From a virus, in the IMG/VR virus record IMGVR_UViG_3300044729_002069, positions 1-63,089 of that record: DNA of 63,089 nt; one strand, given 5' to 3'. The notes below the pieces were generated by a model. It worked only from the letters and a program-made list of their open reading frames with translations. It was not told where the DNA came from and searched no databases. Positions 43,816 to 61,617 of this stretch are shown here, piece after piece (the stretch's first letter is position 1; every line of letters begins with the position of its first letter). A program made the translations under genes and the position numbers.

Positions 43816-44433
43816 CTACGGGCGAAGAGATCGAACGCTTTTACGAGGACGAGGCTGCGCTGCAAGCTTCCTGTAGAGAGTCATGCCAGCTTCCGTGAGT
43901 GCATACAGCCCTCTCTCTGGGCGCCAAGTCAAACCTTCATTCGCCATCCTGCTCAGCGTGTTGTAGATGGTCTGCTGAGGAATGGTAACGCTAGGCAGTC
44001 GGTGGATGCTTTCAGGAGACAGTGGCACAGGCGATGATCCCAAGGCTTCAATGATGATTTCCCTGGCGGGGCGTGAACCGTTGCTGCCAATCCTCCAAAG
44101 CAAGCGATTCTTGTAGTTGCCAATGGCGCACCGAGCTTCTCTTGTCTGACAAGGCAATCTCCTGACGAACTCCCGCAGCAGTGCATTGTTTGGCCTCCAT
44201 GAAGGAGCTGACAATGTGGCCATGGGAGCAATGGCGTCCAGGCGGGCAGTGATGGCCAGTTCGTCGTTGACAGACGCTGCTACCACCTTGAGCACAACAA
44301 GACGATGGGGAGAGTACCAGAGGAGGTCGAGCAAGCCCTGCTTAAAGGCTTCTGGAGTGGTTCGCCATGAGCAGTAGACAAAATCTGGATCGTTTTCCCA
44401 TTGAGCGACAAAAAAGCGACCGTCGTAGTCCAT
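43816..44433 (-). CDS. Protein with C-terminal winged helix
   Basis: 205 residues. The first 100 are unfamiliar (FVAQWENDPDFVYCSWRTTPEAFKQGLLDLLWY). The C-terminal 80 look like a winged helix: PLSPESIHRLPSVTIPQQTIYNTLSRMANEGLTWRPERGLYALTEAGM, as in PadR/ArsR-like regulators. It is the first gene after the divergent region and may regulate it. Confidence 0.6.
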   Translation of the reverse strand: MDYDGRFFVAQWENDPDFVYCSWRTTPEAFKQGLLDLLWYSPHRLVVLKVVAASVNDELAITARLDAIAPMATLSAPSWRPNNALLREFVRRLPCQTREARCAIGNYKNRLLWRIGSNGSRPAREIIIEALGSSPVPLSPESIHRLPSVTIPQQTIYNTLSRMANEGLTWRPERGLYALTEAGMTLYRKLAAQPRPRKSVRSLRP

Positions 44434-44598
44434 GAAAGACAGGATTGACTTACCAGAAGCACCTTACCACTTACCACTTTTGCTTGCAAGCCCTGTCGTA
44501 GCAATGCCCTCGCACTTACCACCACCCATCGTTTACAATAGCGTTATGCGCAGCGTGTGTCTACGAGCAGTTGACGTGCCAACGCGCAGTGGTGCGAG

Positions 44599-44626
44599 CT
44601 GAACTGAGCGGTTACGAGCAGTTCAG
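44599..44626 (-). ncRNA. Hairpin with CTCGTA loop
   Basis: CTGAACTG...CAGTTCAG, a perfect 8-bp stem around a 12-base loop that reads CTCGTAACCGCT on the minus strand. It shares the CTGCTCGTA motif with the neighbouring elements and with a further 5-bp hairpin near 44545-44585. Confidence 0.5.
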
Positions 44627-44671
44627 GAACCTCCGCGAGCCGCTACGAGCGGGAGCCCCAAGCGTTCCTGA
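44623..44671 (-). ncRNA. Leader hairpin element, copy 3
   Basis: Minus strand: stem TCAGGAAC / GTTCCTGA (8 bp) encloses GCTTGGGGCTCCCGCTCGTA and a GCGG...CCGC-like segment. It shares the CGCTTGGGGCTC and GCTCGTA blocks with copies at 44725, 61181 and 61280 but has an unrelated stem. Confidence 0.6.
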
Positions 44672-44724
44672 CTAAGCGGCTCTGCTCTACCACTCCCTCT
44701 CAACTACCTTCTTCTTCCAGAAGC

Positions 44725-44778
44725 AGAAGGACGCGGCGAGAGGGAAGCCCCAAAGCGAACGTTCTTAAGCGTCCTTCT
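44725..44778 (-). ncRNA. Leader hairpin element, copy 4
   Basis: Minus strand: 10-bp perfect stem AGAAGGACGC / GCGTCCTTCT encloses TTCGCTTTGGGGCTTCCC and CTCTCGC. One base longer in the core than copy 3. Located upstream of the minus-strand operon that begins at 44433. Confidence 0.6.
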
Positions 44779-44808
44779 TTACGATGCTTTCCTAAGTAAC
44801 CTTCGCTA

Positions 44809-44853
44809 GGAGCCGAACGAGCAGAGCCACCAGCGTTTCGTACATAAGGCTCC
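44809..44853 (-). ncRNA. Leader hairpin element, copy 5 (divergent)
   Basis: Minus strand: 6-bp stem GGAGCC / GGCTCC encloses GAAACGCTGGTGGCTC then TGCTCGTTC. The core deviates (TGGTGGCTC for TTGGGGCTC) but block order and spacing are kept. Confidence 0.5.
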
Positions 44854-44975
44854 CTCTCCACCACCAATCATCAATCTTCCTTCTTCTGGCGTGAGCGTTG
44901 AGTCTATGGGGAAGGTGTGCTTGCGTGGGGCTGGATAAAGAAAAGAGTTCAATACTATACAAAGAAGAAGAAAAC

Positions 44976-45025
44976 AGCACCGTACTGATCAACGCTCTTG
45001 GGGAGCTACCCGCTCAAACGGTGCT
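44976..45025 (+). ncRNA. Leader hairpin element, copy 6
   Basis: Plus strand: 8-bp perfect stem AGCACCGT / ACGGTGCT encloses CAACGCTCTTGGGGAGC and CCCGCTC. An AATACTATACA box just upstream may be its promoter. It reads toward the HNH gene, whereas copies 3-5 read the other way, as expected for leaders of divergent units. The remainder of 44434-45438 holds no gene that I can support. Confidence 0.55.
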
Positions 45026-45100
45026 TCCTGCGCGAGAGAACAATGGGAAAGGAAAGGCGGCAAGACATCCCTAATTCCAGAACAAAGCCTTTTCTTAGAG

Positions 45101-45120
45101 CGTATATACAACGTATCTAC
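45101..45120. repeat. Left inverted repeat flanking the HNH cassette
   Basis: CGTATATACAACGTATCTAC. Its reverse complement matches 46125-46144 at 18 of 20 bases. Each repeat is itself a tandem of GTAKATAC units with 11-base period. Directly after it, two 21-base near-direct repeats (AACTATCAGGAA... and AATTATCAGGAA...) lie at 45126 and 45152. Confidence 0.65.
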
Positions 45121-45438
45121 ACAATAACTATCAGGAAAACAACTAACTGGTAATTATCAGGAATGCAACTAAAAGAAACAATCGGCCTCTTGAACAATCG
45201 CTAGGGCTACTTCTCGTTCGGCCTGCTACGAACAATCTTATGACCTCACTCCAGCTCGCTCATTGAAGATCGTTCGGTCAGTGACGACTAGCTTCTGACG
45301 GAGTATTGGCACGATGGGCAATGCTTGCTCAGTATTGGCTCTTTCCCATGGTCAGGCAATACTTCATTGTGGGGATGAACCTAGCTATTCCTTTCACTTG
45401 AGAGGGGATTAGCATGTGACATTGACAATTCAAAAGCT

Positions 45439-57369: not shown

Positions 57370-57448
57370 GGGCGTTGAAGTGGGGATCAGTGAAGGGGTG
57401 CTGCCGGATTGGGTGCGGCTCCGGCGGGCCGTGGCGCTCAGGCTGCTA

Positions 57449-58977: not shown

Positions 58978-59065
58978 CCCTTTGCCATTGTCAACCCTCC
59001 CCTTTGCCATTGTCAACCCTCCCCTTTGCCATTGTCAACCCTCCCCTTTGCCATTGTCAACCCTC
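58978..59065. repeat. Four perfect 22-base tandem repeats
   Basis: The unit CCCTTTGCCATTGTCAACCC + TC occurs four times with 22-base period. It includes the stop codon of the TerS-like gene. On the minus strand every unit contains TTGACA, a perfect -35 hexamer. Confidence 0.9.
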
Positions 59066-59830
59066 GTCGTCTTGCTCTTCATCGTCAGTAGCAGGCAGCA
59101 TTGGCCTGCTATTGCCAACAGGTTCGCCATTGTCGTCCAGTTCTGCCTCTGCAGTGGTGTCGATGGCTCCGGCACGGTCTTGAGCAGCAGCTTCCGCCTT
59201 GCCAATCTTCTTCACCTCTGCGCTCAAATTGGCGAGGAATTTCTTGTAGCTCTTTTCGTCGTTGTCGTCGTTCTTGGGCTTGTTATCAAACAAGCCAAGC
59301 AGGCGAGCTTGCTGCTCCAAGCAGCCTTTGGCAACAGTGAGAAAACTGCTTTCACCAGCAGAATTGTATTCTTCAACGGTGATAACATCCTCTCCGTGAC
59401 GCTGCTGCACACGCTTGACAGTGCGTCTTTTGCTTTGTTCAAAGCTTTCCATCGCCTTTGCCTTTAGCTCACCTTGCTCGTCTAAGAGCTTGGCTCGCCA
59501 TTGGTCTGCAGTGGCGAGAATGCCGTCCACGTAGGCTTGCTTGATTAGCTGTCTGTCAGCATTCACTACAGCCTTGCTCTGCTTAAACACCTTGGCAATT
59601 TGCGAGTTGCTAAGGTTGGCAGCAAGAAGCTCAGCAGTGGCATAGCGTCTAAGACGAGTGCTTTCCTTGTCAAACATCTCGCCTGGCTCTGCCCTATTGC
59701 GAAGCCTGTCCACTTGCTCAACAGTTAAACCTGCTTTGGTCAATACTTCCAAGCCATATTTCAGCAAGCTTGCTTCGTCCTCAAAGCTATGCTCAGGGAC
59801 ACTGCGGTTCTTTCTATGAGAAGGAGCCAT
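59057..59830 (-). CDS. Terminase small subunit-like protein
   Basis: 257 residues. A helix-turn-helix (LSNSQIAKVFKQSKAVVNADRQLIKQAY, about 72-100) is followed by charged helices and FLTVAKGCLEQQARLLGLFD (about 165-185), a pattern like the xxALKxxExxxKLLGLD of many small terminases. Acidic C-terminal tail. The large subunit is 23 kb away, so packaging genes would be split. A transcription factor is the alternative. Confidence 0.5.
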   Translation of the reverse strand: MAPSHRKNRSVPEHSFEDEASLLKYGLEVLTKAGLTVEQVDRLRNRAEPGEMFDKESTRLRRYATAELLAANLSNSQIAKVFKQSKAVVNADRQLIKQAYVDGILATADQWRAKLLDEQGELKAKAMESFEQSKRRTVKRVQQRHGEDVITVEEYNSAGESSFLTVAKGCLEQQARLLGLFDNKPKNDDNDEKSYKKFLANLSAEVKKIGKAEAAAQDRAGAIDTTAEAELDDNGEPVGNSRPMLPATDDEEQDDEG

Positions 59831-61180: not shown

Positions 61181-61239
61181 AAAGAAAGCACCGTCGAAAA
61201 AGCTCGCTTGGGGCTCGCCTGCGCGTCGGTGCTTTCTTT
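61181..61239 (+). ncRNA. Leader hairpin element, copy A
   Basis: A 13-bp perfect stem (AAAGAAAGCACCG / CGGTGCTTTCTTT) encloses GAAAAAGCTCGCTTGGGG then CTCGCCTGCGCG. Upstream of the plus-strand operon at 61618. Confidence 0.65.
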
Positions 61240-61279
61240 GCGAAGGTTTATGAAGAAAGTAGTTTGTAAAGTATGGTTA

Positions 61280-61332
61280 AGAAGCGCTCTGAAAAAGCTC
61301 GCTTGGGGCTCGCTTGCTCGTATCGCGCTTCT
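61280..61332 (+). ncRNA. Leader hairpin element, copy B
   Basis: An 8-bp perfect stem (AGAAGCGC / GCGCTTCT) encloses the same GAAAAAGCTCGCTTGGGG core as copy A, then CTCGCTTGCTCGTATC. The stem sequence is unrelated to copy A, so pairing, not primary sequence, is conserved. The rest of 61118-61617 has a weaker related hairpin near 61392-61433 and no gene that I can support. Confidence 0.65.
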
Positions 61333-61617
61333 GCGAAAGGGCATGGTGAACTGCTGCTCAACATTCCCTTTCCCATCGAAGCCACCTTCTCGTCAGGAGC
61401 GCCGCAGGGCGTAGATGCCTGAGCTGCTCGTTGACGTTCCGCAGTCCCCCAGGCGCGTTTCTGTGCGAGGGCCTGCTCAGGAAGAGGGTAAAGGGGTGGA
61501 GAGCAAAAGTCAATGGGGTCGTCCACCACTTTGATGACTGTCACCACTAGAGGAAAAGGAGCGGTTGGCAATGGGCTGGTTTGTGGGTATGATGCTCAAG
61601 TCCCTCGACCAGTCCCC

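Follow-up and report, generated by a model that had tools for sequence, protein, structure and literature searches.

A set of hairpins with differing stems separates the early genes of this virus from its operon of ribonucleotide-reductase (RNR) and structural genes, which raises the question of whether they act as folded RNA, for example as the 5' leaders that the original prediction took them for, or in some other form. The window, that is the whole 63,089-base virus record, carries such hairpins at two loci. Locus 1, between the early genes and the RNR/structural operon, contains three minus-strand units (B1-B3) with a tail hairpin and one plus-strand unit (A), while locus 2 (61181-61331) contains two plus-strand units. 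Literature searches returned no description of such hairpin arrays. They look like an undescribed functional nucleic-acid element, which is most likely an RNA.

The window is colinear in gene order with the cyanosiphovirus S-CBS4 from the RNR genes to the structural genes; the portal proteins of the two are 67% identical and the RNR subunits 58-62%. Based on S-CBS4, the freshwater virus group that bears the hairpins probably infects cyanobacteria. S-CBS4 is the only isolate among the relatives used, all others being metagenome contigs, and the covariance model gave no match above chance in this nearest isolate. The GC skew of the window showed no clear origin. Elsewhere, an intergenic stretch of 35 bases (57397-57431) is identical to Synechococcus phage S-H1 (MK105819.1:13380-13414) and is the sole near match of window positions 42-63 kb in the phage collection.

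Hairpin units in the window

Four hairpins with perfect stems around a shared core had been claimed for locus 1. Perfect stems around a related core are present, but the core is exact in only one of the four. On the minus strand, B1 (44809-44853) has the outer stem GGAGCC/GGCTCC, the divergent core CGCTGGTGGCTC and the tail CTGCTCGTTC (E 2e-3 with covariance model R2); a regular core occupies its position in two relatives (L003/L009). B2 (44725-44778, minus strand) has an outer stem that is a perfect 10-bp inverted repeat, AGAAGGACGC/GCGTCCTTCT, around the core GCTTTGGGGC (E 8.5e-9). For B3 (44637-44682, minus strand; core CGCTTGGGGCTC, tail CCGCTCGTA, E 5.8e-12) the stem first proposed at 44623, TCAGGAAC/GTTCCTGA, turned out to be an alternative not common to the relatives, the conserved stem being GAGCCGCT/AGCGGCTC. 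The predicted fifth hairpin is indeed there, as an 8-bp tail hairpin at 44599-44626 (minus strand; CTGAACTG/CAGTTCAG) with CTCGTA in its loop, and its GAACTGCTCGTA part comes after the last unit in several relatives. The A unit (44976-45025, plus strand) combines the outer stem AGCACCGT/ACGGTGCT with the inner hairpin GCTC-TTGGG-GAGC (E 5e-3), and A-type units with different stems occupy the same place in relatives. At locus 2, both on the plus strand and again with perfect stems and a related core, unit 1 (61181-61239) has the outer stem AAAGAAAGCACCG/CGGTGCTTTCTTT (E 3.8e-9; fold z -3.3) and unit 2 (61281-61331) the outer stem AGAAGCGC/GCGCTTCT (E 1.3e-8). R2 thus recovers all six window units with E-values from 6e-12 to 5e-3, which, like the others from the home-made models used here, are rough.

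The exact core CGCTTGGGGCTC occurs in the window only at 44653, 61205 and 61300, once at locus 1, where the variants CGCTTTGGGGCTT, CGCTGGTGGCTC and CGCTCTTGGGGAGC stand at 44725, 44809 and 44976. The core alone, with two mismatches allowed, is no rarer than chance (8 occurrences in the window against 8.7 expected). The signal above chance is the combination of core and stem, with stems of 6-13 bp in the family and 2-7 bp at chance occurrences of the core.

Fold, loop and homologues

All units follow one plan, in which an outer stem of 6-13 bp with free sequence encloses an inner hairpin of 2-6 bp capped by UUNRG, mostly UUGGG, and the 3' strand resembles CUGCUCGUA. The inner stem varies in both length and sequence (GC, GCC, GCTC, GCTCC, GCCC, GCGC, GGC) around this one loop. 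In a scan made without regard to the loop, UUNRG capped 119 of 284 hairpins of the same plan, and other loops outside the group appeared at most four times each. The third base of the loop is free (G, T, A or C) and the fourth is G or A only. UUNRG includes the UNR consensus of U-turns, and judged by its base pattern the loop fits that consensus.

That the changed stems reflect selection on the folded strand had been proposed from the window and is borne out by covariation in two partly overlapping sets. In 69 distinct copies, 99.0% of stem cells were paired and 10 of 11 pairs had two-sided changes (166 such changes against 39 in shuffles); sliding the structure by 1-3 columns left 34-52% paired. 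Loci collected via the RNR protein, which share some contigs with the first set, were 97.7% paired, with 104 two-sided changes against 29 in shuffles; an alignment fitted to a model has a lean toward that model. In a set of 61 distinct units, 27 different sequences are found at the six innermost stem pairs, the 100% pairing of this set holding by construction as its members were picked for having stems. Together with the homologues in many virus contigs and the lack of an Rfam match, the covariation strongly supports selection on the folding of the single strand. A candidate extra helix, GGA/UCC, between the inner and outer stems (P about 0.01) was kept out of the model.

Further homologues, as anticipated, are present in dozens of virus contigs. 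Model R1, built from six real units, gave 103 matches in 59 sources, and of the pattern scans of IMG/VR the first gave 41 matches, about 26 of them family contigs, and the third gave 35, most of which belonged to the family. Core matches in these family contigs have perfect stems of 6-13 bp, with exceptions of poor stem that include L010, L017, L018, L029 and L033; some viral core matches were due to chance (e.g. L011, L014, L030) and were excluded. In sister lineages missed by the model (L221, L226, L236, L238, L242, L245, L223), reading by eye found UUNRG hairpins at the same first site, which differ in stems, linkers and tails. A host origin of the element was rejected, since the core pattern across 84,980 host genomes returned only chance matches, in unrelated bacteria without stems; 35 chance core matches in bacterial genomes had stems of 2-7 bp, mostly 3-4 bp.

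The view that the core belongs to no named RNA family held up. No Rfam 15 family reached its gathering threshold in the window, and looser searches, run on 44400-45400 and on five relatives, turned up unrelated families at chance level only, the one exception being a tRNA elsewhere in L004. A glutamine riboswitch or other known tandem riboswitch was likewise rejected for lack of an Rfam match. The manA, wcaG and PhotoRC-II motifs are also structured RNAs of cyanophages, but they are marine and lie upstream of metabolic or photosynthesis genes (PMC2864571), whereas the arrays described here are freshwater elements. Forward-strand intrinsic terminators were discarded, as the units have no U-tract and are followed by GCGAAGG-type sequence. 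Small protein-coding ORFs were discarded on reading by hand: several units have an open frame, but differences in inner-stem length alter the frame, which also varies from unit to unit, so that no single frame is kept through the core.

Placement and surroundings of the arrays

Each genome has its arrays, of one to four units, at the same two sites. In the eight genomes compared in detail, the B array (1-4 units) precedes the genes that lead up to RNR and runs in their direction; the single A unit, where found, points the opposite way, and locus 2 lies beside the early genes and is directed away from them. The consistent orientation that had been claimed thus stands: every B unit faces the RNR operon, and every locus-2 unit faces away from the early operon. 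The orientation agrees with the downstream operon in 8/8 genomes and at all loci fetched through neighbour proteins, where every match lay between the early genes and the RNR/late operon or divergent beside the first early gene. Two sets of loci, fetched by protein baits irrespective of the hairpin element, confirm this placement. When the bait was the TerS-like/'RNase E' early protein, 59/59 matches fell in its 5' flank on the opposite strand; matches were present in 40 of 75 loci having enough sequence, in 27 of 29 at identities of at least 47% and in 0 of 12 below 41%. When it was RNR beta, all matches were upstream, with B units in forward and A units in reverse orientation. The gene at 59057-59830 (minus strand), labelled 'RNase E' both by PHROGs and in S-CBS4, has a sequence that looks helix-turn-helix or small-terminase-like.

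Neighbouring genes are less constant. Behind the A unit a co-directional gene is often missing, and the HNH gene that it had been seen to precede is incidental, given that the A unit has no downstream HNH gene in G006, G009 and G016. The first gene of the RNR operon in the window (43816-44433, minus strand) combines a T5orf172-like N-terminus, degenerate here, with a winged-helix-like end. Its homologues come after the array in many relatives, not all, and it was rejected as an obligatory array partner, being absent at several array-bearing loci.

The promoter-like sequences do not bear out the step from orientation to a 5' leader. A promoter-like TAGACA-17-TATTGT (44535-44563, minus strand) lies in a conserved block between the array and the RNR operon, and this block, GCTGCGC..CTATYRTAA with a -10-like sequence, stands downstream of the B array across relatives. 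At locus 2, a sigma70-like promoter TTGGCA-17-TATGAT (61565-61593, plus strand) lies about 230 nt downstream of the units. Between the units and this promoter, in most locus-2 relatives, is a second conserved hairpin-like motif GCGCC..GGCGC (61399-61456, plus strand), which reads AGCGCCGCAGGG...CCCCAGGCGCGTAGATGC with a variable inner part. Upstream of the units no consistent promoter was identified, and in several phages some 23-70 nt separate the first locus-2 unit from the divergent start codon, which leaves little room for one. The palindrome GTCTCATGAGAC often follows the -10-like block; together with related GAGTCTCA repeats it is found at the putative RNR-operon promoter of L004, L005, L009, L026 and L028, at L112:24521 and in S-CBS4, and these repeats are likely a repressor operator. 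Between the A and B units (e.g. in L118 and L127) the spacer contains a conserved TGTGCGATCACA-like palindrome and then TTTCAGCGGCTTC, a possible regulator site.

Candidate roles of the arrays

The reading preferred here, tentatively and at a level short of probable, is that of a structured RNA of modular build that acts on transcription entering the main operons and resembles put only in its logic. The modules, each a free-sequence outer stem with a UUNRG-capped inner hairpin, would be transcribed on the strand given above, at locus 1 into the RNR/late operon and at locus 2 into the operon that diverges from the early genes. Through its one to four copies, an array could display the loop repeatedly, either to RNA polymerase or to an RNA-binding protein of the host or phage, and may in this way alter elongation or readthrough into the downstream operons in the manner of lambdoid put or nut.

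HK022 put comprises two RNAs that act in cis, one downstream of PL and one downstream of PR (PMC9378689). It suppresses pausing and termination by way of the zinc-binding domain of RNAP beta'. The putL and putR RNAs share with the arrays that they are phage cis elements at two loci per genome, with several hairpins pointed into major transcripts. Membership was rejected, as put is a two-stem RNA of about 70 nt just downstream of early promoters, while the arrays have one to four units of about 50 nt, spaced by about 76-99 nt, with UUNRG loops and a promoter-like block downstream. Lambda nut sites (boxA/boxB) likewise have a hairpin with a conserved pentaloop and a free stem near the start of major operons. 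In lambda the boxB loop is GNRNA-like and boxA precedes boxB; as the loop of the arrays is UUNRG, nut boxB was rejected as well. Against the put-like reading stand the promoter-like block downstream of the arrays, the little promoter room at locus 2, the A unit often without a co-directional gene, and stems almost without G-U pairs.

This last feature bears on the choice between RNA and DNA. Stems are nearly all Watson-Crick and almost free of G-U pairs despite their freely changing sequence, which is unusual for an RNA. Alternatively, hairpins extruded from one DNA strand could serve as replication, priming or packaging sites, comparable to single-strand initiation sites or the N4 hairpin promoters, and the two intergenic loci that flank the early module in inverted orientation would suit this. 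However, unit spacing varies continuously between about 89 and 99 nt (76-79 nt in some cases) and shows no helical phasing, a loop whose third base is free and whose fourth is always a purine suits an RNA U-turn, and a non-exhaustive look recognised no initiator or HUH protein nearby. In two phages, L009/L054 and L118 (G002:52.6 kb), a full unit and a small hairpin sit cleanly inside the UUGGG loop of another unit, in L009 that of B2, and in the sister lineage L226 a long stem encloses two units, both of which are natural for a folded RNA. Loop constraint, lack of phasing, nesting and the enclosing stem favour RNA, while the near absence of G-U pairs and the lack of a consistent upstream promoter at locus 2 make a DNA role possible, if somewhat unlikely.

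If the element is RNA, it might also be released as a separate small RNA acting in trans, for example as a protein sponge or decoy. Several binding sites would be provided by the repeated units, the linkers are purine-rich and C-poor (70% purine and 10% C in the main lineage, not so in sister lineages), and each array lies between the reverse complement of A, which is a terminator-like hairpin, and the next promoter. No terminator was found at the 3' ends of arrays in the sequences inspected or in terminator scans, however, and the strict synteny upstream of operons suggests a role in cis, so that a trans-acting RNA is unlikely. Transcription of the reverse strand, which would place the hairpins in the leader of the early operon and at its 3' end, is more doubtful still. 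Locus 2 does lie directly 5' of the first early gene, and reverse A, the only form with a T-rich tail, scans as terminator-like at the early-operon end, but the B array would be left without a transcript in phages that have no HNH gene, and forward-strand G-U pairs exceed A-C pairs (13 vs 0, mostly from one ambiguous pair). Least probable of all are selfish hairpin elements akin to the mitochondrial double-hairpin elements, which are dispersed and mobile hairpins of intergenic DNA: clean insertion into loops and varying copy number recall these, but membership was rejected since the arrays keep to two fixed loci in fixed orientation across divergent phages and retain their form with new sequence in sister lineages.

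Within the preferred reading of an RNA acting on transcription, a self-nesting RNA of interchangeable UUNRG-capped modules could even be a protein-free device for readthrough of host RNA polymerase into the late operon, a speculative and decidedly unlikely variant; the hosts of such a device, to our knowledge, lack Rho.

For cyanophages of this siphovirus lineage, no description of the control of the early-to-late switch was found in the literature. An element that covaries so strongly, keeps to two fixed sites and has been re-invented with new sequence by sister lineages offers a direct way into this switch, and the alignment and model supply the rule by which to search for it, a free outer stem around an inner hairpin capped by UUNRG.
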